From the NCBI RefSeq assembly GCF_900103985.1, contig NZ_FNIE01000024.1, positions 1-64,000 on the forward strand: a stretch of DNA of 64,000 nt, read 5' to 3'. Shown here piece after piece: positions 709 to 15,340 of this stretch (position 1 is the first letter of the stretch; every line of letters starts with the position of its first letter). The notes beneath the pieces are model-generated. The model was not told the origin of the DNA. It saw nothing but the letters and a program-made list of their open reading frames with translations, and did no database searches. This DNA is from Actinacidiphila guanduensis (GTDB taxonomy: Bacteria > Actinomycetota > Actinomycetes > Streptomycetales > Streptomycetaceae). The position numbers were made by a program, and so were the translations under genes.

Positions 709-1560
709 ATGCTTCCCACGTTCGTCATCGGCCTCCGCGAAGGACTGGAGGCTGCCCTGATCGTCGGCATCATTGCCTCCTTCCTCGGCCAACAGGGCCG
801 CCGCGACGCGCTGCGGAAAGTGTGGCTGGGCGTCGGCGCCGCGGTGGCGATCTGCGTGGCCGTGGCGATCGGCCTGCAGGTGGCCTCCAGCGACCTGCCG
901 ACGCGCCAGCAGGAGCAGTTGGAGACGGTCGTCGGCGCGATCGCCGTGGTGATGGTCAGCTACATGGCGCTGTGGATGCGCCGCCACTCGCGGAACCTGA
1001 AGAAGGACCTGGAGGGCGCGGCCGGCCAGGCGCTGGCCACCGGCTCGGCGACGGCACTGGTCGTGATGGCCTTCCTGTCGGTGCTCCGCGAGGGCTTCGA
1101 GACCGCGGTCTTCCTGCTCGCCACCTTCAACGAGAGCGACAACCCGGCCTACGGCGGCACCGGCGCGGCGCTGGGCATCCTGGTCGCGGCGGTCGTGGGC
1201 TACGGCATCTACAAGGGCGGCGTGCGGATCAACCTGTCCCGCTTCTTCCGGATCACCGGCGTCGTCCTGGTCATCGTCGCGGCCGGCCTGGTCTCCACCG
1301 CGATCATGACCGCGTACGAGGGCGGCTGGATCGACCGCAACAACCCGGCGTTCAACCTGGACTGGCTGGTGCGGCCCGGCACCCCGATCGCCTCGGTGGT
1401 CACCGGCGTGCTCGGCATCCAGCCCAACCCGAGCTGGGCGATGGTGACCGGCTGGCTCGTCTACGCCGTCCCGATGGTCGCGGTCATCCTGTGGCCGACC
1501 CGCCGCAAGGCCCCCGCGAAGCCGCCGGCCGACCTGCCGGTGAACGCCAGCGCCGGCTGA
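709..1560 (+). CDS. efeU: EfeU/FTR1-family high-affinity iron permease
   Basis: This 283-residue integral membrane protein is the permease of the EfeUOB iron-uptake system. Both halves carry the family REGxE motif: REGLE at residues 10-14 and REGFE at 127-131, the acidic sites thought to conduct iron. About seven hydrophobic segments are readable, and the length is normal for FTR1/OFeT proteins. The ATG at 709 is preceded by GAAGGA. It is first in efeU-efeO-efeB, which argues that it imports iron delivered by EfeO with EfeB. The upstream promoter is overlapped by two iron boxes, so expression is probably repressed in iron-replete cells. Confidence in the family is very high. Confidence 0.95.
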   Translation: MLPTFVIGLREGLEAALIVGIIASFLGQQGRRDALRKVWLGVGAAVAICVAVAIGLQVASSDLPTRQQEQLETVVGAIAVVMVSYMALWMRRHSRNLKKDLEGAAGQALATGSATALVVMAFLSVLREGFETAVFLLATFNESDNPAYGGTGAALGILVAAVVGYGIYKGGVRINLSRFFRITGVVLVIVAAGLVSTAIMTAYEGGWIDRNNPAFNLDWLVRPGTPIASVVTGVLGIQPNPSWAMVTGWLVYAVPMVAVILWPTRRKAPAKPPADLPVNASAG

Positions 1561-1716
1561 CGACCGGCCGCGACCGGCCCCGCCCGACAGCGCTGGACAC
1601 CGGCCCCGTCCGGCAGCGAGAGCGCCCCGCACCACCCGTACGCCCGCGTACCGCCCCTGAAACGAACCGTCCCGACTTCCGCCGTGCCCGCACGGCCCCG
1701 TACCGAGGAGCCCACC

Positions 1717-2895
1717 GTGACCCGCCCTGCCCCCACCCGTCGCATCCTGGCCTGCGCCGCGACCGTCGTCTCCGCGGGTCTGCTGCTGACCGCGTGCGGC
1801 GGCCACGACACGAACTCCTCGGCCTCCGGGGCCACGGCGAAGAACGCCGGCGGCAAGACCGCCACCGTGACGATCAGCATCACCGACAAGGACTGCGCGC
1901 CCAGCCCGGCCAAGGTCCCGGCCGGCGCCGTGAAGTTCAAGGTGAGCAACAAGAACTCGGCGAAGGTCACCGAGGCGGAGCTGCAGGACCACGGCAAGAT
2001 GCTCGGCGAGAAGGAGAACCTGACGCCGGGCCTGTCCGGCGACTTCACCCTCAACCTCGACAAGGGCACGTACTCGGTCTACTGCCCGGGCGCCGACACC
2101 GACCGCACGGCCTTCTCCGTCACGGGCGCGACGACGAAGACCTGGAAGGACGACCCGCAACTGGTCGCCGCCACCCAGCAGTACGGCACCTGGATCGACG
2201 GCGAGGTCAAGCAGCTCGTCACGACCACCGACGCGTTCACCGCCGCGGTCAAGGCCGGCAACATCGACGAGGCGAAGTCCCTGTACGGCAAGGCCCGCAT
2301 CCACTACGAGCGCATCGAGCCCACCGCCGAGATCTGGGGCGACCTGGACGCCCGGATCGACGGCCGCGCCGACGACGCCGCGACCCCGGCCGACTTCACC
2401 GGCTTCCACCGCCTGGAGCAGGCGCTGTGGCAGAAGAAGTCGCTGGCCGGCACCGCCAAGCTCGCCGACCAGCTGGACGCGGACGTCAAGACGCTCAACT
2501 CCCAGGTGCCGAGCGTCGAGTACCAGCCCGCGGTGATCGCGAACGGCGCCACCGACCTGATCAACGAGATCCAGTCCTCGAAGATCACCGGCGAGGAGGA
2601 GCGCTACTCGCACATCGACCTGCTGGACTTCGACGGCAACCTCGCGGGCGCCAACGAGGCCGTCTCGGTCCTGATGCCCACGCTGAAGCAGAAGGACGCC
2701 GCGCTGGCCACCGAGATCGACCAGCGCTACCAGGCCGTGCTCACCGCGCTCAAGAGCTACGCGGCCAAGCCCGGCTACGAGGGCACCGGTTACGTGGACT
2801 ACCGGAAGGTGACCGACGCCCAGCGGCGTACCCTGGCGCAGACCGTGGACGCCTACGCCGAGTCCGTCTCCAAGATCGCCGGAAAGATTGCCTGA
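1717..2895 (+). CDS. efeO: EfeO iron-binding lipoprotein (cupredoxin-like plus M75/imelysin domain)
   Basis: The 392-residue extracellular iron-binding partner of EfeU. The GTG at 1717 is chosen because GAGGAG lies six bases upstream; it gives a clean lipoprotein signal ending LLLTAC|GG. An in-frame GTG at 1684 would only lengthen the n-region. Residues of about 45-150 look like a cupredoxin-type domain. The remainder is the imelysin/M75 domain with GFHRLE at 229-234, the family GxHxxE motif. The order efeU-efeO-efeB with a 3-nt gap to efeB indicates one transcript. The gap from efeU is 156 nt and GC-rich. Confidence 0.94.
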   Translation: MTRPAPTRRILACAATVVSAGLLLTACGGHDTNSSASGATAKNAGGKTATVTISITDKDCAPSPAKVPAGAVKFKVSNKNSAKVTEAELQDHGKMLGEKENLTPGLSGDFTLNLDKGTYSVYCPGADTDRTAFSVTGATTKTWKDDPQLVAATQQYGTWIDGEVKQLVTTTDAFTAAVKAGNIDEAKSLYGKARIHYERIEPTAEIWGDLDARIDGRADDAATPADFTGFHRLEQALWQKKSLAGTAKLADQLDADVKTLNSQVPSVEYQPAVIANGATDLINEIQSSKITGEEERYSHIDLLDFDGNLAGANEAVSVLMPTLKQKDAALATEIDQRYQAVLTALKSYAAKPGYEGTGYVDYRKVTDAQRRTLAQTVDAYAESVSKIAGKIA

Positions 2896-2898
2896 CCC

Positions 2899-4203
2899 GT
2901 GACCGATACTCCGGACATCACCCCCGCCCCCGACGAGGCGGGCCCCGAGCGGGCCGCTGTCAGCCGCAGGCGGCTGCTGGGCGCGGTCGGCGCCGGAGCG
3001 GCCGTGGCCGGCGCCGCCCTGGGAGCCGGCGGCGCCGTCCTGGCCCACCACGACAGCGGCTCGTCCGGCGCGGACGCCGCCGGCTCGGGCCCGCAGACCG
3101 TGGCGTTCCGTGGCGTCCATCAGGCCGGCATCGCCACGCCGTCCCAGGACCGGCTGTGCTTCGCCACCTTCGACGTCGGTCCCGGCGCCACCGCGGCCGA
3201 CCTGCGCGAGCTGCTGAAGACCTGGACGGCGGCGGCCGAGGCGATGACGCTGGGCAACCCGGTGCCGGGCAACCCCGGCGACCTGTACACCCCGCCGGAG
3301 GACACCGGCGAGGCGGCCGGGCTGCAGCCGGGCAACCTCACCATCACCATCGGCTACGGGCCCACCCTCTTCGACCGGCGGTTCGGCCTCGCCGGCCGCC
3401 GCCCGTCGGGGCTGGTGAAGCTGCCGCACCTGCCCAAGGACAACCTGGACCCGGCGAACTCCGACGGCGACCTGTGCGTGCAGGCGTGCGCGGACGACCC
3501 GCAGGTGGCCTTCCACGCGGTGCGCAACCTGCGCCGGCTCGCCTTCGGCACGCTGGTGCCGCGCTGGATGGAGCTGGGCTTCGGCCGCACCTCCTCCACC
3601 ACCCCGCAGCAGGCCACCCCCCGCAACCTGATGGGCTTCAAGGACGGCACCCGCAACATCGACGGCACCGACGCCGCGCTGATGGGCGCGCACGTGTGGA
3701 TCGGCGACGAGGAGCCGCAGCGGTGGGCGCGCGGCGGCTCGTACCTGGTCAGCCGGAAGATCCGGATGCTGATGGAGCAGTGGGACCGGGACCGCCTCGG
3801 CGACCAGCAGGACGTCTTCGGGCGCTTCAAGTCCACCGGGGCCCCGCTGACCGGCAAGGCGGAGTTCGACACCCCCGACTTCCACGCGAAGTCCGGCGGC
3901 CAGTACGTCATCCCGGCCGACGCGCACATCCGGCTGGCCGCGCACGAGAACAACAACGGGCTGCGGATCCTGCGCCGCGGGTACTCCTACACCGACGGCA
4001 TCGACCCCGAGACCGGCGACCTGATGGGCGGGTTGTTCTTCATCGCGTTCATGAAGAGCCCGCAGCAGTTCATCACCCTGCAGACCGCCCTCGGGCAGCA
4101 CGACGCGCTCAACGAGTACATCCAGCACATCGGCAGCGGGCTGTTCGCCGTGCCGCCGGGGCTGGCCGCCGGGCAGGACTGGGGCACCCAGCTGTTCGGC
4201 TGA
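2899..4203 (+). CDS. efeB: EfeB Tat-exported Dyp-type heme peroxidase
   Basis: This 434-residue protein starts with GTG three bases after the efeO stop. The twin-arginine motif SRRRLL (22-27) followed by an Ala/Gly-rich hydrophobic stretch indicates folded export by Tat. GFKDGTRN (246-253) is the Dyp-peroxidase signature containing the distal Asp (D249). The AHIR motif around H343 should supply the proximal heme ligand. EfeB proteins act outside the cell with EfeO in iron acquisition, by ferrous iron oxidation or heme deferrochelation depending on the report. It ends the operon; a hairpin follows at 4209-4237. Confidence 0.94.
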   Translation: MTDTPDITPAPDEAGPERAAVSRRRLLGAVGAGAAVAGAALGAGGAVLAHHDSGSSGADAAGSGPQTVAFRGVHQAGIATPSQDRLCFATFDVGPGATAADLRELLKTWTAAAEAMTLGNPVPGNPGDLYTPPEDTGEAAGLQPGNLTITIGYGPTLFDRRFGLAGRRPSGLVKLPHLPKDNLDPANSDGDLCVQACADDPQVAFHAVRNLRRLAFGTLVPRWMELGFGRTSSTTPQQATPRNLMGFKDGTRNIDGTDAALMGAHVWIGDEEPQRWARGGSYLVSRKIRMLMEQWDRDRLGDQQDVFGRFKSTGAPLTGKAEFDTPDFHAKSGGQYVIPADAHIRLAAHENNNGLRILRRGYSYTDGIDPETGDLMGGLFFIAFMKSPQQFITLQTALGQHDALNEYIQHIGSGLFAVPPGLAAGQDWGTQLFG

Positions 4204-5295: not shown

Positions 5296-6135
5296 ATGGA
5301 CAGGGAACAGCTCGCGGACTTCCTGCGGACCCGGCGCGAGGCGCTGCAGCCCGAGGACGTGGGGCTGCCGCGCGGGCAGCGGCGCCGTACCCGGGGACTG
5401 CGCCGCGAGGAGGTCGCCGCGCTGTCGGGGATGTCGGCGGACTACTACGGGCGGATCGAGCAGGCGCGCGGCCCGCAGCCCTCGGAGTCGATGCTGGCCG
5501 CCATCGCGCGCGGGCTGCACCTGACGCTGGACGAGCGCGACCACCTGTTCCGGATGGCCGGCCACAGCACCCCGCCGCGCGGCCTGCGGGGCGAGCACGT
5601 CAGCCCGGGCGTCATGCGCATCCTGGACCGGCTCGCGGACACCCCGGCGCAGGTGATGGGCCCGCTCGGCGAGACGCTGGTGCAGACCGCCCCGGCGATG
5701 GCCCTGGTCGGCGACGAGACGCGCTTCACCGGGCCGGCCCGCAGCATCGCCTATCGCTGGTTCACCGACCCGGCCACCCGCCTGGTCTACCCCGAGGAGG
5801 ACCACGGCCTCCAGGGCCGCTTCCTCGCCTCCAACCTGCGCGGTGCCTACACCCGGCAGGGCCCCGGCTCGCCGGCCGCCGAACTGGTCGACGAACTGCT
5901 CGCGGTCAGCGGAGAGTTCGCCGACGTGTGGAAGGCGCACGAGGTGGGGTTGCGGCGCAGCGAGATCAAGCGCCTGCGGCACCCGGAGGTCGGTGTGCTG
6001 GAGCTGCACTGCCAGACGCTGCACGACCCGGGCCAGGAGCAGGTGCTGCTGGTCTACACGGCCCGGCCCGGCTCGGAGTCGTACGACAAGCTGCAACTGC
6101 TGTCGTCGCTGGGGACGCGGCAGCCGGGGAGCTGA
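5296..6135 (+). CDS. XRE-family regulator with MmyB-like C-terminal domain
   Basis: A 279-residue transcription factor. An N-terminal helix-turn-helix of about residues 5-75 carries the family hallmark GLRREEVAALSGMSADYYGRIEQ. The remaining ~190 residues match the MmyB-like ligand-binding domain, including the characteristic stretch HDPGQEQVLLVYTA near the C terminus. The ATG at 5296 follows a purine-rich GGAGGAGGGAG tract. It probably acts on the SDR gene just upstream and on itself; the effector is unknown. A short hairpin follows immediately (6136-6156). Confidence 0.88.
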   Translation: MDREQLADFLRTRREALQPEDVGLPRGQRRRTRGLRREEVAALSGMSADYYGRIEQARGPQPSESMLAAIARGLHLTLDERDHLFRMAGHSTPPRGLRGEHVSPGVMRILDRLADTPAQVMGPLGETLVQTAPAMALVGDETRFTGPARSIAYRWFTDPATRLVYPEEDHGLQGRFLASNLRGAYTRQGPGSPAAELVDELLAVSGEFADVWKAHEVGLRRSEIKRLRHPEVGVLELHCQTLHDPGQEQVLLVYTARPGSESYDKLQLLSSLGTRQPGS

Positions 6136-6156
6136 GCCGGCGGGTTCGCCGCCGGC
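6136..6156 (+). terminator. hairpin after XRE gene
   Basis: An 8-bp perfect stem GCCGGCGG/CCGCCGGC around a GTTCG loop begins at the base after the stop codon. It separates this gene from the convergent operon that ends at 6297. Confidence 0.55.
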
Positions 6157-6296
6157 GGCGGGGGCGGATCGGGGCCGCGGCCGCTGCGCGCGAACCCGCG
6201 CGACACCCGGCGGACGCGGGTGCGGTCAGCTCCGGGGAGCCGATACGGGCAGGTGCGGGCCCCGGTCCGGGTCCGGGGAGGAGCCGCGGCCGCCGG

Positions 6297-7592
6297 TCAG
6301 CCCGTGCCGCACACCGACAGCAGCCAGACCTGGCCGGTGTCGCCGGAGGCGCTGTCGCTGTGCACCCGGTCGCGCACCTTCTCCAGGATGTCCAGCTGCG
6401 CGTCGAGACCGCCGGGGTCGGCGAGGTAGCGCAGGGCGGCCAGCGCGAAGGCGTCGCGCATCGCGGAGGGCATCGCGTCGGAGGCGTCGTAGCAGCGCTC
6501 GGTGTGCGGGTCGCGCAGCACCCTGGCGATGTCCTGGTCGATCCGGTCGGCGCCGGGGCCCGCGCCCTGGCGGTCGCCGGTGAAGCCGTGCTGGGAGCGG
6601 CTCCAGCGCTGCTGGACGTCGGGCCGGGCGAGGTAGGCGATCAGCTTGCGGGCCTGCGGGGTGGCGCGGAACATCGCGGCCAGGTCGCCGGAGACCTCCC
6701 AGTCGGCCGTCTCGGTGCCGGCGCCCGGGACCAGGTCGTGGGAGTGGGCCTCGGCGGGACCGGTGACGATCCAGGGCTGCTCGGTGCGCACGAAGGTGGC
6801 CTGGTGCTCCAGGGTGCAGGGCCGGGCCGCGCCGGGCAGCAGCCCTCGGGCGGCGTCGCCGTAGCCGGTGACCATGGCGTTGCCGACCAAGTGCCGGTCG
6901 CCCGCGCCGACCATCGCGCCCCAGGTGCGGAAGGCCCGCCGGACCGCGGGCGCGGTCCATTCCAGGTTGCCGGTGGCCCACTCCTGGTAGACGTCGTGGC
7001 CGGCCTGCTGGAGCAGGATGTCCTCGATCCAGTCGGTGCCCGGCCAGCCCGAGGTGGCGCCGTCGGCCATTCCCAGGCACCAGGAGTCCTGCTGCCGTGC
7101 GGCATCGGCGAGTTGGGCGGGCTTCATCGTGGCGGGGTGCCACACCAGGCTCTTCAGGTCGGTCTTGATCGGCACCCAGTAGGTGTGCGCGGTGTCGCCG
7201 GGGCCCAGGGCGCGCGATCCCCAGGGCGCGGCGAAGTCGGCGGTGTCCACCAGGCCGTCCAGCGGCTGCAGCCGGCCCTGATGGGCGTATCCGGCCAGCT
7301 CACCGGGGCCGGGCAGCACCGCGACATCCGGGGTGGTGCCCGCCTCGGCGTCGGCGGCGAGCACCTGGCTCACGGCCGAACTGCCCTGGTAGAGCACGTG
7401 GATGTGCTCCTCGGACTCGAATCCGGCGATGACCTTCTCGCGGAACAGCGCCTCGTTGCCGCCGGTCCAGTTGGCCAGCACCGTGACGGAGCCGTGCCAG
7501 GCGACGGCCCTGACGACGACCACACCGGTGACGGCGAGCACGGCCAGGCACAGCGCGGCGGCGCCCAGTGTCCTGCGGCCCGGGCGGCTCAT
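6297..7592 (-). CDS. membrane-anchored extracellular solute-binding protein (GlnH-like position)
   Basis: A 431-residue protein with one N-terminal hydrophobic segment (about 10-28) and no lipobox cysteine, so it is probably a signal-anchored or cleaved extracellular protein. The mature part begins GSVTVLANWTGGNEALFREK, typical of family 1 (sugar-type) ABC binding proteins. No permease or ATPase gene is adjacent. The ATG overlaps the stop of the upstream membrane-protein gene (ATGA). It is the last gene of the kinase operon, so a sensing rather than transport role is likely. By position it corresponds to GlnH in the mycobacterial GlnX-GlnH-PknG pathway, although GlnH belongs to another binding-protein class. 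The ligand is unknown. Confidence 0.8.
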   Translation of the reverse strand: MSRPGRRTLGAAALCLAVLAVTGVVVVRAVAWHGSVTVLANWTGGNEALFREKVIAGFESEEHIHVLYQGSSAVSQVLAADAEAGTTPDVAVLPGPGELAGYAHQGRLQPLDGLVDTADFAAPWGSRALGPGDTAHTYWVPIKTDLKSLVWHPATMKPAQLADAARQQDSWCLGMADGATSGWPGTDWIEDILLQQAGHDVYQEWATGNLEWTAPAVRRAFRTWGAMVGAGDRHLVGNAMVTGYGDAARGLLPGAARPCTLEHQATFVRTEQPWIVTGPAEAHSHDLVPGAGTETADWEVSGDLAAMFRATPQARKLIAYLARPDVQQRWSRSQHGFTGDRQGAGPGADRIDQDIARVLRDPHTERCYDASDAMPSAMRDAFALAALRYLADPGGLDAQLDILEKVRDRVHSDSASGDTGQVWLLSVCGTG

Positions 7593-8527
7593 CGCGGCGC
7601 CCTCGGTCGGTACTCGTTGATCCGCGGTTGCAGACCCCACATGACCAGGCTCACCAGTACCGCTCCTCCCCCGAGTATCCCGTAGCCGGCCGTGGCCCGC
7701 AGGCCCGTGCCGCGGGTGCGGCGGGCGATCTCCGCCGCGGTGTCGCCGATGCCGGGACCCGCGTGGTCGCCGTGCAGCAGGGTCCTGACGTGGAACAGAC
7801 CGGTGTGGGTCTGCCAGGTGAAGACCACCAGGACGGCGGCGCCGGCCACCAGCAGCAGTCCCGCGGCGGCGAGTTGGCGGTTCCAGCGGGTGCGGAAGCG
7901 GGCCCGGGTGAAGCGGTGCGCCTCGGCCAGGGCGGCGACCAGCAGCACGCAGAGCAGCGCGGCCAGCGTCCACCCGGTCCACAGCATCCAGCCGAAGGAC
8001 GCCTGCCGGTCCGCGGTGCGCACCTGCTGGGCCCGCAGCGCGTTCAGCCGCCCCATCACCGAAGTGTCCGACGTCCTGGCGTCCTTGCCGCCCAGCATCT
8101 CGGTGGCGTAGTACACGTACCCTGCGTGCTCCAGCGAGTCCGCCCGCACCTTGTCCGCCTCGGCCACCCAGCCGGTGTAGGTGGTGATCAGGCCGAAGAG
8201 GGTACGCAGCGTCTCGCGCCCGTCCGCGCCGGTGACGTCCTCGGCGGCGGCCGCCGCCAGGCTCTGGTCGGCGGTCGAGATCTGCTGGTAGAAGTCGCCG
8301 GTGCCGGCCCGGTCGGCGGCCACGTCGTTCACCACCCGGCGCTGCGCCTGCAGCAGCGCGGCCTTGGCGGTGTCGACGTCCAGCACCCCGGCCGAGGTCG
8401 AGGTCGCCAGCGGCACCGCCCCCGCGTGCACACCGGTGTAGGAGCCGAACAGCGCGAGGGTGGCCAGCACGCACAGCGCGACCAGCAGCCACTGGCGGCG
8501 CCGCAGTTCGCGGGCGGTGGTGCTCAC
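7589..8527 (-). CDS. four-helix membrane protein with extracellular loop (GlnX-like topology)
   Basis: A 312-residue membrane protein. A helix at about 13-31 is followed by a ~145-residue, mostly helical extracellular region. Three more helices follow near 178-202, 216-236 and 278-298, with a short second extracellular loop between the last two. The GTG start at 8527 overlaps the stop of the vWA gene (GTGA), and its own stop overlaps the start of the binding protein. I recognise no named domain by motif, but topology and neighbours resemble mycobacterial GlnX, which couples periplasmic GlnH to the cytosolic kinase PknG. Function as a transmembrane relay is inference. Confidence 0.75.
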   Translation of the reverse strand: MSTTARELRRRQWLLVALCVLATLALFGSYTGVHAGAVPLATSTSAGVLDVDTAKAALLQAQRRVVNDVAADRAGTGDFYQQISTADQSLAAAAAEDVTGADGRETLRTLFGLITTYTGWVAEADKVRADSLEHAGYVYYATEMLGGKDARTSDTSVMGRLNALRAQQVRTADRQASFGWMLWTGWTLAALLCVLLVAALAEAHRFTRARFRTRWNRQLAAAGLLLVAGAAVLVVFTWQTHTGLFHVRTLLHGDHAGPGIGDTAAEIARRTRGTGLRATAGYGILGGGAVLVSLVMWGLQPRINEYRPRAPR

Positions 8528-10281
8528 GGCGTCTGCGTCCGGCGGCCGCAGGTGGGGCAGAACACCGACTGCTGGGGCATGCGCGCGCCGCAGTGCGGGC
8601 AGTCCCGCAACTCCTGTGCGGCGGCCGCGGCTTGGATGCCGTCGGCGGGTGGGCCGAAGGTGGTGTGGGTGCTGGCGGTGAGCAGGTGCTCGAAGTGCGC
8701 CGCCGTCACGCCCGCGCGCATCTCGACACGGCCCGCGGCGGCGTCGTGCACCGCCACGATGCGCTGCAGCTCGGCGAGTTGGCGCACCGCGCCGAGTTCG
8801 TGGGCGAGCCGGACGGCGGCGGCCAGGTGGTCGAGCACGGCGGGGTCGTGCCGGTCGCGGCGGAAGGCGTCGGCGGCCGACGCGGCGGTGCGGCCCAGGA
8901 GCTGGTGCTTCTCTACGTGGGCGCGCTCCAGGTTCCGCCGGTTCTCCGCCTCGGCCCGCACCGGGTCGTCGGTCCACTGCACCAGGCACGGCAGCTCCGC
9001 CGGCAGGGCCACCGGCGGCCCGCCCGGCACCCGCACCCGCACGGTGGCCGCCTGCAGGTCCTCGCCGAGCGGCCGCCCCTGCGGATCGACCAGCAGGCAC
9101 AGCTGGTACCTGCGCCGCTCGTCGCCCCAGGCGCGGGTGGTGAAGACCGCCGCCCCTGTGCCCGGCGCCTGGGGCAGCTGCGCCTCGTTGGGGTGGACCT
9201 GCCGCAGGTAGCGCACCTGGGTGCCGGGCATGGGGGTGACGACGATCTCCAGCTCGGGGACGGTCCGCTGTGCCAGCCCGGCCACCAGCCGTCGGTAGGC
9301 GGCGGGCAGTTCGCGCTCCTCGTGCACGGAGTTCGCCGAGCCGTGCAGGCGGCCGGTGGCGTCCATCAGCACCTGGGCGTCCCAGCCGTCGCCGATCCCC
9401 CAGGCGTCGCAGACGAACTTCCCTTCCAGGGCGTCGAGTACGGCCGCGAGCGGGTTCTCCTCGTCGTGCTCGTTGCGGCCGTCGGTGAGCATCAGCACGT
9501 GCGGGATCGCCGCGCCCTGCTCGGCGAGCAACCGCCCGGCCAGCTCCAGCCAGTTGCCGACGCAGGTCCCCCCGTGGGCCTCCAACCCACCGATCGCCAG
9601 CGCCGCTTCGCGCCGGGCAGCAGCGTCCGCCGCCCGCATCCCGCCGCCGGGCGGATAGGCGACCTCGGCGGTGTGCGTGCCGCGCACCACGGCGAAGGGC
9701 GTCCCGTCGGGAAGGGCGTCCAGGGCCGCGAGGGCGGCTTTGCGTGCCTCGCGGAACTTGCGCTCGGGCCAGTCCATGGAGCTGGAGCAGTCGAGCACGA
9801 GGACTTCGGCGAGCCGGGCGGGGACCGGAGCGGCGGAGCCGTGGGGCCGGGCCGGTGCGGCCGAGGCGGGGGCGCTCGCGATGGCGGGGCGGCCGGCAGA
9901 TGCGGCGCTCCCAACGGACCCGGCCCGCGCGGCAGTTACGGCGGACCCCGTGGGCACGGCGGGGCTGGTCTGCCCGGCGGACCCCGTGGGCACAGCCGGG
10001 CCGGTCTGCCCGGCGGACCCCGTGGGCACAGCGGGACCGGTCTGCCCGGCGGACTCACCGGGTGCGGCGGGGCCGGCGGGCGCCGCTCCGCCTGCCGAAC
10101 GCGCGGCTTCCGCATGCTTGCCCGCCGGGTCCCGCGCAGCCCCGGCGGCGCTGGGCGCCGTGCCCGTCATCGAGACCGTCACGATCGCGTGCAGCTCCTG
10201 GCGGCCTCTGCCCACGGCCAGGAAGGTGCGCTGGTCGATAGCGAGGCGGACGGACGGCGCCTGCGTGCCCTGGGTGTCCAC
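8524..10281 (-). CDS. vWA-domain protein with C-terminal zinc ribbon
   Basis: About 585 residues. After an N-terminal region and a Pro/Ala/Gly linker with a 12-residue tandem repeat comes a von Willebrand factor A domain. Its MIDAS signature DCSSSMD is near residue 160 and a TDG motif near 262. A helical C-terminal region follows, then a zinc ribbon (CPHCGARM...CPTCGRR) in the last 25 residues. vWA domains bind protein partners through a metal ion. No signal peptide is visible, so it should be cytosolic with the kinase encoded upstream. The GTG at 10281 is the preferred start; a GTG at 10347 is possible but has a badly spaced ribosome-binding site. The stop overlaps the next gene's start. Confidence 0.85.
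   Translation of the reverse strand: MDTQGTQAPSVRLAIDQRTFLAVGRGRQELHAIVTVSMTGTAPSAAGAARDPAGKHAEAARSAGGAAPAGPAAPGESAGQTGPAVPTGSAGQTGPAVPTGSAGQTSPAVPTGSAVTAARAGSVGSAASAGRPAIASAPASAAPARPHGSAAPVPARLAEVLVLDCSSSMDWPERKFREARKAALAALDALPDGTPFAVVRGTHTAEVAYPPGGGMRAADAAARREAALAIGGLEAHGGTCVGNWLELAGRLLAEQGAAIPHVLMLTDGRNEHDEENPLAAVLDALEGKFVCDAWGIGDGWDAQVLMDATGRLHGSANSVHEERELPAAYRRLVAGLAQRTVPELEIVVTPMPGTQVRYLRQVHPNEAQLPQAPGTGAAVFTTRAWGDERRRYQLCLLVDPQGRPLGEDLQAATVRVRVPGGPPVALPAELPCLVQWTDDPVRAEAENRRNLERAHVEKHQLLGRTAASAADAFRRDRHDPAVLDHLAAAVRLAHELGAVRQLAELQRIVAVHDAAAGRVEMRAGVTAAHFEHLLTASTHTTFGPPADGIQAAAAAQELRDCPHCGARMPQQSVFCPTCGRRTQTP
9941..10048. repeat. 3 x 36-bp tandem repeat inside the vWA gene
   Basis: Three near-identical 36-base units begin at 9941, 9977 and 10013. 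On the minus strand they encode the 12-residue unit SAGQTGPAVPTG. They form a flexible linker before the vWA domain and are a likely site of length variation between strains. Confidence 0.8.
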
Positions 10282-10379
10282 TGTGCTTGCTGCTCCCTGA
10301 CTCCTGTGTCGCGACCGCTCGTCGCGGCGTACCCGGTCCGTACTCACCTCATCCGGCGCAGCGCCCCGCCGGCCCCGCC

Positions 10380-13190
10380 TCAGAAGCTGCGCTCCGGCCG
10401 TACGGCGTAGGCGCGGTCGAGGAGGGCACCGCGTTCCTGGGCGTCGGCGGCGCGGTCGGCCAGGGCCCGCAGCGAGGTGTGGAGCAGTTCGGCCAACTGC
10501 TCCCTGCTGTCCGCCCCTTCGAACAGTTCCCCCGTGGGCAGCACGGGGAACTCGGCGGCACCGCGCGGGTCGGCGAACCGCCGCAGATAGGCGGCCCTGC
10601 TGCGCGGCCCGCCAGGCTCCTCGCCGCCGCCGAGCGCCTTGCGGACCAGCTCGGCGGCCCGTGCGAGGGCGGCGGGCCGCTCCGGCGGGCCGTTCCCGGG
10701 TCCGGTGAGCGGGCCGAGAAAGGCGGCGAGTACGTTCTCGCGGACCTCCGCGACCAGCCGGTCCCGCGACTCGCCGGGCGCGAGCTCCTCCACCCGGTGG
10801 GCGGCCTGCCACAGCATCGCCGCCGACGGGACGCCGGGGCCGAGCCGCCCGGTGAGCACGCGGATCGCGGCGACCCGGGCGGTGTCGTAGTGCCGCGAGG
10901 TGGAGGGCACCTGGTCGAGCACCGCCACGGCCGCCTCCCGCGCGCCCGGCTCGCGTCCGACCGCCCGCAGCCGGGCCCGGGCCAGCCCGAAGGCCGCGCT
11001 CGCCTGGCTGCGGTCCCGCTCCCAGACGGCCGCGTAGAACTCCCGTACCGTCGCCTCGGGGTTGCGCAGCCGCTCCGCGCAGTAGCCCAGCGCCAGTTTC
11101 GGCGCCCACTCCCCCGGCACGATGTCGTACACGGCCGCGAACTCCGCCTGCGCCTTGCCGACATGGCCGGCCATCAGGAACTGCAGTCCGCGGTGCCAGG
11201 CCAACCGCCAGTCGTAGCCGGCGACATCGCGGCCCATCAGCTGCTCGGCCTCACCCAGCCAGCGGTTGGCCTGCCGCGCCGACTCCGGCTCCCCGCGCAG
11301 CAGATAGGCCCGGCACAGCCACAACGCGACCTCCACCGTCCGCAACTCCCGCTCCCGCTCGACCCGTTCGGCCACCCGCTCGGGCACGGCGGCGCCGCCC
11401 AGCCGGCCGAGGAAGACCACCGAGCCGTCCTGCGGGTCCGGGATCGGCACCGGCAGGCCGCGGGCGGCCTCGCGCGGCTCCGGCGTGGAGATGTCCAGGT
11501 CGGGCGGATCGGCCAGGTCCAGGCCCGGGCGATCGGTCCAGTGCGCGGTGCCGGGGATCGCGCCGAGCCCGGCGCCGAAGAGGACCGCGGTCGGGCCGAA
11601 GCGGGTGGAGCGCTCGGGGTGCCGCTCGTGCCGGCCGAGCGCCCGGTGCTCGCGCAGCACCTCCCACAGCTGGCGGGACATCTGCGCGGCGGAGGTGAAG
11701 CGGGCGGCGGGGTCGTCATGGGTGGCGCGAGCGATCAGCCGCTCGAAGGAGCGCGCGGCGAGCCCCGCTCCGGGTGCCGCCCGCGCGGCCAGCTCCTGCA
11801 GGGTGCGGCCGACCGTGAACAGGTCGCTGTCGATGTGGAATCCGCGCCGCTCGCGCTCGTAGGACAGCGGCGCGTAGTCCCGGGTGAAGGACAGGCGCGA
11901 CTCGTGGTCGTCGATCCGCCGTACCGCGCCGAGGTCGATGAGCTTGATCTGGCGGCCGTAGTGGATGACGTTGGCGGGCTTCATGTCGCAGTAGAGCAGG
12001 CCCTGGTCGTGCAGGTACTCCAGAGCGCCGAGCAGCTTGCAGCCGTAGGTGAGCACATGGTCCAGGGCGAAGGGCTCGCCGAAGATCTCGGCCAGTTCCT
12101 CGTCGCTGGAGCGCAGCAGCAGGTTGAGCGGGCGGCCGCCGACGTACTCCATGACGATGTAGTCGGTCGGCTCGGTCTCGCCCTCGGCGAGGTGGCGGCG
12201 CGAGGAGATGACGCTGACGATGTCGCGGTGGTGCAGCGAGGTCAGCGACCGCAGTTCCTCCACCGCGCGCCGCCGCGCGATGGCGTCGCTGTTGTTGACC
12301 TGCGCCTTGAGCACCACCAGCTGCCCCTCCAGCGCGGTGTCCTCGGCGAGGTACACCCAACTCGTGCCGCCCGGCGTCAGATAGCCCAGCACGCGGTACG
12401 TCTGGCTGCCGGCCTCCCCGATCTCCTCGCCGGGCCGCAACTGCGGCCGGAAGGAGTACGGGGTGCCGCACTGCGGGCAGAACCCGTGGTCGGGCGACGG
12501 CCCGCCGTCGTAGGCGACCCCGATGGTGCCCGTGCACTCGGGCACACCGCAGTTCCGCCCGCCGACGGGCGGCGGCGCGGGCACCCGCGAGATGGTCGAG
12601 AGGGCCGGGGCGGGGATGTCGGGCAGCAGCACGAGCCCGTCCCGGTCGAGCCCTCCGGGGGCCGGGGGTGCAGGTGGCTCGTTGGGCGCGGGGTGCGCGT
12701 GTTCGGGGGCGGAGGAAGGGAGTTGGGCGTCGAGGTCTGCTTGCGGGGCTTCGGGAGCGCGAGGAGTGGGGACGGAGAGCCTGCCGGACGCGGGAGTCGG
12801 CGAGGACTGTGGAGCGGAAGGCGCGGGCGGAGCCGGGGTCGAGGAGGGTGAGAGGGCAGAAGGCGCTGGCGGAGCCGGAGGTGAGGTGGGCGGTACGGCG
12901 GAGGACCCCGGCGGAGCGGGAGTTGAGGACGGCGGTACGGCCGAAGGCGCGGGCGGAACCGGAGTTGGTGACGGTGGTGGGGTCGAGGACGCGGGCAGGG
13001 CTGAAGTCGGCGTGGACCGTACTCCAAGGCTGCCCTGCGCGGCAGTCGGCGAAGAAGGCGCGGCGGACGCACCGTTGGGGTCGGCGGGCAGGGCCGGGGC
13101 CGCGCGCAGGCAGGTGTCGCAGTAGCCCGTTGCCATGAGGGTGCCGCCCTCGCAGTCGGGGCGCGGGCAGGGCGTACGGGTTCCGGTCAT
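10380..13190 (-). CDS. PknG-family serine/threonine protein kinase with two zinc motifs and TPR region
   Basis: A 936-residue cytosolic kinase. Residues 8-31 hold one Cys4 motif (CPRPDCEGG...CDTC). A ~170-residue Pro/Ser/Ala-rich repeat linker follows. Near 213-245 is the PknG-type zinc module ending CPQCGTPYSFRPQLRPG, then the kinase domain of about 262-500. There, VVLK supplies the ATP-binding lysine, DYIVMEYVGG the hinge, YCDMKPAN the catalytic loop and KLIDLGAV the DFG-equivalent. The ~400-residue C-terminal part is helical and TPR-like. These motifs match mycobacterial PknG, which is ~750 residues; the extra length is the N-terminal zinc motif and linker. The ATG at 13190 overlaps the upstream stop (ATGA). 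The substrate is unknown; no FHA partner is encoded nearby. Confidence 0.9.
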   Translation of the reverse strand: MTGTRTPCPRPDCEGGTLMATGYCDTCLRAAPALPADPNGASAAPSSPTAAQGSLGVRSTPTSALPASSTPPPSPTPVPPAPSAVPPSSTPAPPGSSAVPPTSPPAPPAPSALSPSSTPAPPAPSAPQSSPTPASGRLSVPTPRAPEAPQADLDAQLPSSAPEHAHPAPNEPPAPPAPGGLDRDGLVLLPDIPAPALSTISRVPAPPPVGGRNCGVPECTGTIGVAYDGGPSPDHGFCPQCGTPYSFRPQLRPGEEIGEAGSQTYRVLGYLTPGGTSWVYLAEDTALEGQLVVLKAQVNNSDAIARRRAVEELRSLTSLHHRDIVSVISSRRHLAEGETEPTDYIVMEYVGGRPLNLLLRSSDEELAEIFGEPFALDHVLTYGCKLLGALEYLHDQGLLYCDMKPANVIHYGRQIKLIDLGAVRRIDDHESRLSFTRDYAPLSYERERRGFHIDSDLFTVGRTLQELAARAAPGAGLAARSFERLIARATHDDPAARFTSAAQMSRQLWEVLREHRALGRHERHPERSTRFGPTAVLFGAGLGAIPGTAHWTDRPGLDLADPPDLDISTPEPREAARGLPVPIPDPQDGSVVFLGRLGGAAVPERVAERVERERELRTVEVALWLCRAYLLRGEPESARQANRWLGEAEQLMGRDVAGYDWRLAWHRGLQFLMAGHVGKAQAEFAAVYDIVPGEWAPKLALGYCAERLRNPEATVREFYAAVWERDRSQASAAFGLARARLRAVGREPGAREAAVAVLDQVPSTSRHYDTARVAAIRVLTGRLGPGVPSAAMLWQAAHRVEELAPGESRDRLVAEVRENVLAAFLGPLTGPGNGPPERPAALARAAELVRKALGGGEEPGGPRSRAAYLRRFADPRGAAEFPVLPTGELFEGADSREQLAELLHTSLRALADRAADAQERGALLDRAYAVRPERSF

Positions 13191-15340
13191 CGGGAAGGAC
13201 CCGCCCCCTCCCCGCCCTGGCCGTCCTGCCGGTACGGCCCCGCGTCCGGCGCCCGCTCGGCACCGCGCGCGTGGAAGGCGATCCGGGGATCCGGCGGCTG
13301 GTGCGGCCTCGGCGGTACGTCTCGGGACTCGCGTCCACCGCCGGGTGCGGGCGGTACGGCTCCTGGGGCGGACTCCTGCGACGCCGTACGCGCCTGCGCC
13401 CCACCGCCCGGGGCCTGTTCGGGCTCGTCCTCCGCCCCGGCCTCGTGCCCACGAGCGGTGTCCTGCTCGTCCGCCCCCGCACCGCGCGCGTGCGGGATGC
13501 CGTGGGCACGCGGCTCGATCTCCGGCTCCGACGGGCCGGCCGGAACCGCGGGATTCGGCCCGGCGTCGCCCACGGGCGGCCCCTCCGCCGTGGCCTTTTC
13601 GCCCAGGGCCGGCTCCGCATCGGACACCCGCCGACCGCCCGGCCCCGCCGGGTCCTCTCCCGCAACGGGGCCGGCGTCCGGGCGGCTGTCGCCGGTCCAT
13701 GCGTCCACGAACTCCGTGTAGCGGGCCACCGCCGCCTCCGCCGCGGGCATCTCGCAGGGGGTGGCGGCCAGCAGCTCCTGGGCCTCGCGGTAGAGCGCGT
13801 CCGCGGCCAAGTCCTCGCGTACGGCGGCGGCTTGGTAGAGGGCGCGGTAGGCGGTGAGGCGGCCCGCCAGCTCCTTGCGGCGCTCGATGAGCCGGTCCAT
13901 CGCGGTGTTGGCCTCGCGCAGCCGCCGCTCGTAGCGCCGGGCGGACCGCTCGTAGCGGCCCGCGTCGGGGAAGCGGCCATGCGCGGTGAGCACGCCCGTC
14001 GTCCCGGCCACGCGCGTCCGCAGCGCCTCGGCCCGTACGAGGGCGTCCAGCGCGCGGTCGGTGTCGGCGCGTACGACGGCGCGGCGCTCGTAGAAGGCGC
14101 GGGCGAGCGGCCCGGTGATCCGCTCCAGCCGCTCCACCAGGGCCGCGTGGCGCTGCTGGTTGGGCTCGATGACGAGCTGGCTGCGGGCCCGCGCGTACGT
14201 CTCGGTGTCGTGCCGGAAGACGAGCAGCAGCCGGTCCTCGCGGGCCCGCAACTGCGCCAGCAGGTCGAGGAGTTGGCCGGGCTCGTCGGATTCGTCCACG
14301 CCGGCGACGACGAGGGTGAGGGTGGGCCGCGCGGCCTGGATGCGCTCCTCGGGCGGCGCGGGGTCGTCGGCGGGCAGCCCGAGGCGGTCGGCGACGCGCT
14401 GGGCGAGCCAGTGCGCGGTGCGGCCGGTGACGTCGACGGCGAGGTCGAGGCCGCCGGGCGGGGGCACCGCCGGGTCGTCGGCGCCGCCCGTACCGGCCGA
14501 CTCGGCGCTGTGCGGGCGCAGTTCGCGGTCGGCGAGGAGCAGCGAGCGGCGCAGGGTGCCGAGCCGTACGGTGTCGTCGGTGCGGACCAGGCTGATCTTG
14601 ACCTGGCTGCCGTCGCCGTGCCGCCCGTCCGGCCCGCGGCTGTCGCCGCGGAACCACTCGGCGAGGCGGCGGCCGAAGTGCGGGTCGATCAGGGCGGGCA
14701 GGCCGGGCGGCAGGGCCTGCAGCGACTCGTCCACGGCCTTGCGCCCACGGGTCCAGCCGGCGGCGCGCGGCAGGTGCCGGACGATGGATTCGGCGGGAAC
14801 GACGTGGGCTTCCCGGCTCGGCTGCCCGGGGTCGGCGCCGGGCAGCAGCACGCCGAGCAGGTCTCCGGTGAGCGCGTCGGCGACGCCGGCTCCCGCGTGG
14901 TCCGGGCCGAGCGGTTCGGCGAGGGCGAGGCGGGCGCGGCCGTCGGCTCCGCCGGGGCCGGGCCGGGTGGTGCCGTCGGTCCACCGGCCGGGGCCGTGGC
15001 CCCGCGGGAAGCCGTGGACGCGCACGCGGCGCCCGGGCACCGACAGCCGCAGCAGCGAGCCGGCGGCGCCCGCGGGCGCGGGCTGCTGCAGCCGTATCGC
15101 GGCGATGCCGCCGTGCTCGGGCGGGCACACCTCCTGCACGATGCCCGCGCGTGAGCCGCCGTCGCCGAACTCCACGGTGATCCGCTCGCCTTGGGCCACG
15201 GTGTACGCGCTCGTCAGCACCCACCCGGGCGCCACCAGCACGCCGGCTCCCGCGACTTCGCCGTCGCCCCGCCGTACGCGCACGGCCCAAGCCGGTGCTC
15301 CCCAGGAGTACCCGCCGCCGAATCCCCCTCCGGCCTCCAT
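13187..15340 (-). CDS. trypsin-like-fold protein lacking catalytic residues, with coiled-coil C-terminal region
   Basis: A 717-residue protein, first gene of the kinase operon. Residues of about 10-190 follow a trypsin-like pattern (GVLVAPGWVLTSAYTVAQGE), but the usual TAAHC histidine is Tyr in TSAYT. The Asp strand reads GGIAAIRL and the expected GxSGxP serine loop reads ALTGDLLGVLLP. All three triad positions therefore appear lost. A middle region (~230-400) has no motif I recognise. Residues ~400-540 are Arg/Glu/Ala-rich and probably coiled-coil, and the C terminus is acidic and disordered. It probably binds peptide or protein without cleaving it. The start at ATG 15340 is supported by a promoter 9 nt upstream. 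Confidence 0.78.
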   Translation of the reverse strand: MEAGGGFGGGYSWGAPAWAVRVRRGDGEVAGAGVLVAPGWVLTSAYTVAQGERITVEFGDGGSRAGIVQEVCPPEHGGIAAIRLQQPAPAGAAGSLLRLSVPGRRVRVHGFPRGHGPGRWTDGTTRPGPGGADGRARLALAEPLGPDHAGAGVADALTGDLLGVLLPGADPGQPSREAHVVPAESIVRHLPRAAGWTRGRKAVDESLQALPPGLPALIDPHFGRRLAEWFRGDSRGPDGRHGDGSQVKISLVRTDDTVRLGTLRRSLLLADRELRPHSAESAGTGGADDPAVPPPGGLDLAVDVTGRTAHWLAQRVADRLGLPADDPAPPEERIQAARPTLTLVVAGVDESDEPGQLLDLLAQLRAREDRLLLVFRHDTETYARARSQLVIEPNQQRHAALVERLERITGPLARAFYERRAVVRADTDRALDALVRAEALRTRVAGTTGVLTAHGRFPDAGRYERSARRYERRLREANTAMDRLIERRKELAGRLTAYRALYQAAAVREDLAADALYREAQELLAATPCEMPAAEAAVARYTEFVDAWTGDSRPDAGPVAGEDPAGPGGRRVSDAEPALGEKATAEGPPVGDAGPNPAVPAGPSEPEIEPRAHGIPHARGAGADEQDTARGHEAGAEDEPEQAPGGGAQARTASQESAPGAVPPAPGGGRESRDVPPRPHQPPDPRIAFHARGAERAPDAGPYRQDGQGGEGAGPSR

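Follow-up and report, generated by a model that had tools for sequence, protein, structure and literature searches.

A conserved actinobacterial operon encoding a sugar-type binding protein, a distant GlnX homologue, a PknG-type kinase and a trypsin-fold protein

The window analysed here, the first 64,000 nucleotides (nt) of contig NZ_FNIE01000024.1 of Actinacidiphila guanduensis, carries on its minus strand five adjoining genes, numbered 1 to 5 in the order of their reading, which constitute one conserved operon (Table 1). They encode respectively a trypsin-fold protein with a long coiled coil, a PknG-like Ser/Thr kinase, a vWA protein, a GlnX-like four-transmembrane (TM) protein and a membrane-anchored solute-binding protein (SBP) of sugar type, and, as judged from their sequences, probably make up a pathway that senses a ligand across the membrane in the manner of GlnH-GlnX-PknG, with another sensor and a protease-like partner. 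PknG signalling is known as an amino-acid sensor that steers the tricarboxylic acid cycle; the present operon indicates that many soil actinobacteria have adapted this chain of receptor, transducer and kinase to a sensor of sugar type and a partner with a protease fold. The first-pass annotation of this DNA had proposed a variant ligand-sensing pathway, a view supported in part, by the GlnX homology, the conserved operon and the sugar-type SBP; two of its details fell away, in that the vWA protein is no addition to the known system and the term pseudoprotease fits this clade and not the system as a whole.

Operon layout and conservation

Three junctions of the operon are 4-nt overlaps (ATGA, GTGA and ATGA), and the remaining one, between genes 2 and 3, is a gap of 98 nt with the GTG start at 10281 or of 32 nt with the GTG start at 10347, so that the coordinates agree with the layout as first annotated, namely five minus-strand genes with 4-nt overlaps and a single 98-nt gap. 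The pattern recurs across loci: at unfused junctions the 4-nt overlap was recorded between genes 3 and 4 in 75/76, between genes 4 and 5 in 79/80 and between genes 1 and 2 in 54/70 cases, and between genes 2 and 3, where the window likewise has its gap, in only 5/74.

Table 1. Features of the operon in the window (all on the minus strand)
Feature	Position	Strand	Basis
Gene 1 (717 aa): trypsin fold, alpha/beta domain, long coiled coil, disordered tail	13187..15340	-	open reading frame, model
Trypsin-like domain of gene 1 (residues ~16-200), predicted inactive	14741..15295	-	triad columns, AlphaFold2 model, fold
Coiled-coil part of gene 1 (~residues 377-553)	13682..14212	-	helices in model; blastp to coiled coil of the standard cluster
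Gene 2 (936 aa): PknG-like Ser/Thr kinase	10380..13190	-	open reading frame, Pfam, 2pzi match, catalytic residues
Kinase domain of gene 2 (residues ~262-520)	11631..12407	-	Lys, HRD-Asp, Asn and DFG-Asp present
PknG TPR domain of gene 2 (residues ~568-823)	10722..11489	-	Pfam PF16918, 1.5e-50
Gap between genes 2 and 3	10282..10379	-	98 nt; the one junction usually without a 4-nt overlap
Gene 3 (585 aa): vWA protein with C-terminal zinc ribbon	8524..10281 (alternative GTG start 10347)	-	intact MIDAS residues
Gene 4 (312 aa): GlnX-like four-TM protein, one large outer helical domain	7589..8527	-	profile, hydropathy, model of fused relative
Gene 5 (431 aa): membrane-anchored sugar-type SBP	6297..7592	-	SBP_bac_1, Pfam 2.5e-12

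Conserved co-occurrence of the five genes, on which the first-pass annotation had staked its proposal, was found: the order 1-2-3-4-5 on one strand was recorded in 68/79 loci with enough flank, mostly from Streptomycetaceae and Pseudonocardiales, a figure which describes loci of this protein family rather than all genomes because the loci were chosen by genes of the family. Own-genus loci were chosen by gene 1, named loci by alignment of gene 5 (the best 80 of 436), and L051 and L052 by the kinase. The 79-locus set comprised those with 8 kb or more of sequence ahead of gene 5; 13 short-flank loci and L031 (at a contig end) fell outside it, and L062-L066, which are named repeats of own-genus loci, were dropped before order, triad, residue, overlap and Trypco were counted. 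The order counts are six-frame profile matches obtained with profiles partly built from the same loci, and genes in the compared loci were called by a simple custom script, not a standard gene finder. Within the genus, all 15 loci with enough flank had the same gene order; gene 1 was present in 16 of its 35 genomes, one more (G017) emerging later via the kinase. The 80 named loci are mostly from Streptomyces, and also from Actinacidiphila, Amycolatopsis, Kutzneria, Streptoalloteichus, Actinokineospora, Solihabitans, Micromonospora, Actinomadura and two metagenome-assembled genomes. Because the order is kept across several actinobacterial families and the 4-nt overlaps are conserved, the grouping of the genes lies far beyond chance.

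Several loci also carry neighbouring genes of the operon within one open frame. Genes 4 and 5 are so joined in 10 loci (eight from Actinacidiphila and two from Streptomyces), as they are on another contig from Actinacidiphila (L059); genes 1 and 2 run together in L108 and L133, where Trypsin_2, kinase and PknG_TPR domains, and in one of them also PknG_rubred, lie in a single frame; and genes 3 and 4 are joined in one locus. The first two kinds of fusion hint at contacts between the binding protein and the GlnX-like protein and between the protease and the kinase, and fusions of this sort make the poorly understood step from GlnX to PknG testable in Streptomyces.

Binding protein, membrane protein and kinase

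By its sequence, gene 2 encodes a PknG-type kinase in which N-terminal Cys pairs, a Pro-rich stretch and a four-Cys rubredoxin-like knuckle are followed by the kinase domain and the PknG TPR domain. The TPR domain scored 172 bits against a cut-off of 27 (PF16918), the kinase domain matched Pkinase (Pfam) with an expect value (E) of 3.5e-19, and the rubredoxin domain (PF16919), which has its four Cys, reached 25.6 bits (1.2e-5; cut-off 28.5) in hmmscan and 31.2 bits, above the cut-off, in the genome search. PknG of Mycobacterium tuberculosis (2pzi) was the best solved relative (E 2.3e-74); the motifs first cited as specific to PknG (CPQCGTPYSFRPQL, YIVMEYVGG and KLIDLGAV) were every one located in gene 2, together with PknG domains, and the catalytic residues (K, D, N and D) were intact in all 79 readable sequences of 81. 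An unrooted quick kinase tree grouped seven standard kinases together, the L057 kinase being outside the tree; the proposition that the kinases of the operon make up a single clade separate from standard PknG was not shown, as they lie on several sides of the standard group. Separately, two genomes of the genus encode very large PknG-like proteins, one of 1306 amino acids (aa; L053, 8378-12298), with a weak vWA-profile match as well, and one of 1934 aa (L054, 8108-13912).

The sequence of gene 4 identifies its product as a distant GlnX homologue which, by the curated threshold, is not a member of the family. Hydropathy bore out a four-helix protein with one large extracellular loop. The similarity to GlnX, offered initially as a matter to be checked by profile, was confirmed by profile-profile comparison (hhalign, 98.2 %, E 3.6e-14 over 202 columns corresponding to the first sensor bundle plus helices 2 and 3) and by the NCBIfam GlnX model (NF058618), the sole match at E ≤0.01, with 31.6 bits (E 9.4e-8) against a cut-off of 250 bits; Pfam returned nothing meaningful. 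Hydropathy and the model of a fused relative gave a second outer loop of ~40 residues and not the two periplasmic helical bundles of GlnX, so that the equation of this protein with GlnX holds as homology to the first bundle and helices 2-3, the second bundle being reduced to a short loop. An EYR-type C-terminal tail shared with GlnX was tried as a marker and set aside as a weak one, occurring in 56/90 gene-4 proteins.

Gene 5 encodes a protein with a single N-terminal anchor (hydropathy), and the PDB sequence matches of its family were mainly sugar-binding proteins. A fold search with the fused gene 4-5 protein of L065 returned sugar binders, by title, as nearly all of its 50 best matches (Z 28-36), and the sugar-type assignment made at the outset is thereby supported; eight Trp were invariant across 13 binding proteins. 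Profile comparison revealed no similarity to the GlnH family (hhalign 0.2 %), the protein belonging to SBP_bac_1 and not SBP_bac_3: the role of GlnH claimed for it is thus retained as that of an anchored SBP accompanying a GlnX-like protein, but not as kinship in sequence. In the model of the L065 fusion (predicted local distance difference test, pLDDT, 88.5) the SBP lies beyond a fifth long helix, and another fused protein has five TM segments by hydropathy; because the anchor helix serves as the fifth TM segment, the fusion keeps the binding protein outside. In a class sample of 296 genomes, 16 stood out by the strength of their binding-protein match (the own genome included). Gene 4 lay directly upstream in 15 of them, the sixteenth having the gene beside others that read as ABC-type permeases from their open reading frames, and in 0/25 weaker loci, which were those examined from among the weaker matches; in two of the latter (L179 and L180) the kinase profile matched close by on the opposite strand. 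The score that separates operon-type from ordinary binding proteins (264 vs 232 bits) was chosen after the contexts had been viewed.

Passages of PMC6069109, PMC9769921 and PMC8546545 propose that PknG receives extracellular aspartate/glutamate signals by way of GlnH and GlnX, probably through its TPR domain; the passages of PMC6069109 further predict amino-acid binding by all PknG-linked GlnH, and name two Streptomyces kinases beside SBPs, SCO1468 and SGR_4432. The window operon shares with the system of Mycobacterium/Corynebacterium an outer SBP, a four-TM GlnX-like protein and a cytosolic PknG-type TPR kinase that are encoded together, and differs from it in the SBP_bac_1 sensor, the want of a second sensor bundle in the GlnX-like protein, the trypsin-fold and vWA proteins within the operon, and a gene order in which the kinase precedes the membrane protein.

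A further comparison is provided by the host itself, whose genome has the PknG rubredoxin domain in three places. One is a standard cluster (L004) in the order GlnX, GlnH, coiled coil, PknG, PP2C, vWA, FHA, the GlnX of which is over the NCBIfam cut-off (454 bits). It holds homologues of genes 2 (37 % identity over 369 aa), 3 (36 % over 389 aa, E 1e-52) and 4 (E 9e-4), and its coiled-coil protein matches part of the C-terminal region of gene 1 (blastp, 40 % over 73 aa, E 9e-7); PP2C, FHA and an SBP_bac_3 protein are its own features, and it has no trypsin domain. The extended layout with PP2C, vWA and FHA is shared by five other genomes of the order (L055, L056, L058, L060 and L061), the coiled-coil gene being called in L056, L058 and L060 and not in L055 and L061; one class genome (L057) has only GlnX-GlnH-PknG, and L050 has kinase, vWA and FHA and no recognised GlnH. 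Gene 3, with its VWA_3 match (Pfam, 9e-10) and zinc ribbon, is therefore not the extra component that it had been taken for, and the proposition that vWA and protease-like proteins were added to a three-gene module was rejected as regards vWA, since standard clusters carry it. Given the homologues in L004 and the same layout elsewhere, the operon, which lacks PP2C and FHA and has a different SBP, is by sequence a divergent relative of the larger cluster and not the three-gene module plus two additions. Neither a paper describing the extended layout nor an operon with a sugar-type SBP and trypsin-fold partner was found among open-access titles and abstract starts, most subscription journals lying outside that search. 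The third host PknG-like gene (L005, G000:C24:32000-47000; 5610-7436, minus strand) encodes a rubredoxin domain and a kinase up to the catalytic loop, followed in frame by an alpha/beta-hydrolase (DUF900, E 4e-4, just under the cut-off), a join that may be a genuine fusion or may come from a deletion or an error of assembly.

The trypsin-fold protein and its Trypco neighbours

An AlphaFold2 model of gene 1 residues 1-560 (pLDDT 90.4) contained a complete trypsin fold, which matched DegP/HtrA/trypsin at Z ~21; Pfam Trypsin gave a sub-threshold match only (0.16). All three triad residues are replaced in the window (His to Tyr, Asp to Gly and Ser to Ala), and on this evidence the protein may bind but should not cut. 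The middle domain was considered as an NTPase and that identity set aside on the motif, GxxxxGK[ST] being absent from every gene-1 sequence scanned; the lists of fold matches for gene 1 were taken up by the trypsin domain.

Among 73 gene-1 sequences, the window included, the His-Asp-Ser triad was intact in 65, degenerate in seven and unreadable in one (L141, which falls outside the triad classes as its Ser column is a gap). The term pseudoprotease, applied to the protein at first, is hence apt for the window clade, where the triad is lost, and does not extend to the family, most of which retains it. The degenerate copies are those of the window, L027, L037, L039 and L040, which form the Actinacidiphila clade and correspond exactly to one kinase clade (support 100), plus L099 and L116. 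Catalytic residues have been lost within the Actinacidiphila clade and, perhaps on separate occasions, in S. calvus and Solihabitans, in loci with no Trypco gene found. As the seven copies represent at most three independent lineages, no p-value is attached to these counts, and the triad letters of L039 are uncertain because of an apparent frame break inside its trypsin domain.

Trypco1 and Trypco2 are named, in the passages of Kaur et al. 2020 (PMC7159879), for linkage to trypsin-like peptidases in conflict systems. A Trypco1/2 gene was located either upstream of gene 1 or beyond gene 5 in 40/65 triad-intact loci and 0/7 degenerate ones, none being found in the window by tblastn or, over its first 22 kb, by profiles. 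Three Trypco proteins were put through Pfam (E 5e-21 to 1e-25) and the remainder located by profiles grown from those; Trypco1 could be missed in triad-intact L089 and L117, because fewer than 400 bases follow gene 5 there. The stronger proposition, that absence of Trypco always goes with a lost triad, was rejected, as 25/65 triad-intact loci are without Trypco, and the one-way statement was kept. Two close sisters, L116 and L135, are 91 % identical over 236 compared bases running from ~90 bases upstream of gene 1 into it, with no similarity further upstream; one keeps the Ser and Trypco2, and in the other the Ser has become Gly and there is no Trypco2. The loss of protease residues in Trypco-free loci, in up to three lineages, suggests a route to asking what role Trypco has.

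Within the clade with the dead triad (four sequences, six pairs, L039 left out), conservation was 65 % in the trypsin domain, 67 % in the middle domain and 66 % in the coiled coil.

Proposed pathway and competing explanations

From these comparisons we infer a direction of signalling, a sugar ligand, an interaction between the kinase and the gene 1 product and a role for the dead protease. Homology and the gene 4-5 fusion make it most likely that genes 5, 4 and 2 form the same chain as GlnH, GlnX and PknG for another, probably carbohydrate, ligand, and the gene 1-2 fusion and shared operon place the trypsin-fold protein beside the kinase. Gene 5 would close on its ligand outside the cell and thereby meet the one outer helical domain of gene 4 in a different way. 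The four helices of gene 4 would carry the signal inward to the TPR domain of the gene 2 kinase, which would then act on, or together with, two proteins of the cytosol: the vWA protein of gene 3, probably a scaffold, and the product of gene 1. The kinase may control the protease, the protease may trim the kinase, or both may bind a third protein. Since gene 1 has working serine protease residues in most relatives, the ancestral output was probably regulated proteolysis, and the dead trypsin domain of the window's clade has probably been kept as a binding or inhibitory module. A broader generalisation, advanced tentatively from sequence, is a widespread actinobacterial receptor-kinase-protease cascade in which a carbohydrate outside the cell would control a trypsin-like protease within it through the GlnX-like protein and the PknG-type kinase, with Trypco as inhibitor or adaptor, the output having possibly turned from cutting to binding in the Actinacidiphila clade, S. 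calvus and Solihabitans.

A number of observations weigh against such a pathway. No FHA protein, the known type of PknG substrate (GarA/OdhI), is encoded among the five genes, and the ligand class of gene 5, probably a sugar, is read from fold and family, with two iron-binding proteins at lower rank among its sequence matches. The first Ser of the MIDAS is changed in some Streptomyces (15 Ala and one His among 75 readable sequences), so the metal site is not always kept. Trypco is absent from 25 of the 65 triad-intact loci, and in triad-intact relatives the trypsin domain is conserved at 79 % vs 60 % for the coiled coil, a relative excess that is gone in the dead clade, such that constraint on the domain has dropped there. 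Incomplete loci also occur: five have only genes 2, 4 and 5, three have genes 1, 2, 4 and 5 without a detectable gene 3, two have only genes 4 and 5 and one of the 79 has gene 5 alone by six-frame profiles, while two class genomes (L149 and L150) have a gene 4-5 pair with no kinase beside it. The short version with kinase, GlnX-like and binding protein only (L097, L098, L100, L102 and L140) shows gaps at the zinc-Cys columns in all five loci; no rubredoxin match was obtained for L097, L098 and L140 in the stretches given to Pfam, which may miss the N-terminus.

Of the alternatives, the one that survives best, unlikely as it is, is a role in conflict or defence like that of the trypsin/Trypco/vWA systems of Kaur et al. 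2020: the SBP would sense a foreign or damage-derived glycan, and the kinase would unleash the protease on the cell itself or on an invader. The passages of PMC7159879 describe actinobacterial GTPase conflict systems with linked kinase, PP2C and stand-alone vWA, and the operon resembles them in its kinase beside a stand-alone vWA protein and in the Trypco1/2 neighbours of a trypsin-like peptidase at 40/65 triad-intact loci, its patchy occurrence in the genus being in keeping with defence. It differs in being joined to a transmembrane solute sensor and in having none of the MoxR, VMAP or GTPase core in its five proteins (Pfam); extracellular sensing through a GlnX-like protein is unmentioned in those passages of PMC7159879, the words 'PknG' and 'solute' being absent from the main text, PADLOC gave kinase-model matches for gene 2, weak protease-model matches for a triad-intact gene 1 and none for the other proteins tested, and the window copy is without protease residues.

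Less probable still is regulation of uptake, whereby the SBP would be part of a sugar importer whose other genes lie elsewhere in the genome, with the kinase tuning that importer. The closest structures are indeed mostly sugar-binding proteins of ABC importers, and the host has other binding-protein profile matches at C12 and C15; Pfam found no permease or ATPase among the five operon genes, however, which, with the fusion of the SBP to the GlnX-like protein and their 4-nt coupling, argues for a receptor role. That the operon is a decaying paralogue of the standard pknG cluster, functionless in this clade, appears very improbable, for although the protease triad is lost, the rubredoxin domain is just under its Pfam cut-off in the protein scan (though not in the genome search), L039 has its apparent frame break and the trypsin domain is less constrained than in triad-intact relatives, all five window frames are open, the kinase and MIDAS residues are intact, the trypsin domain is as conserved within the clade as the rest of gene 1 and the same order is kept throughout the genus loci with enough flank.

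Two minor observations concern genes adjoining such loci. The gene 4-5 pairs of L149 and L150 are both flanked by similar genes of 243/244 aa and 431/430 aa. In the window, three plus-strand genes downstream of the operon (709-4203), which we take to be an EfeUOB-type iron-uptake set, recur beside the operon in many Actinacidiphila loci.

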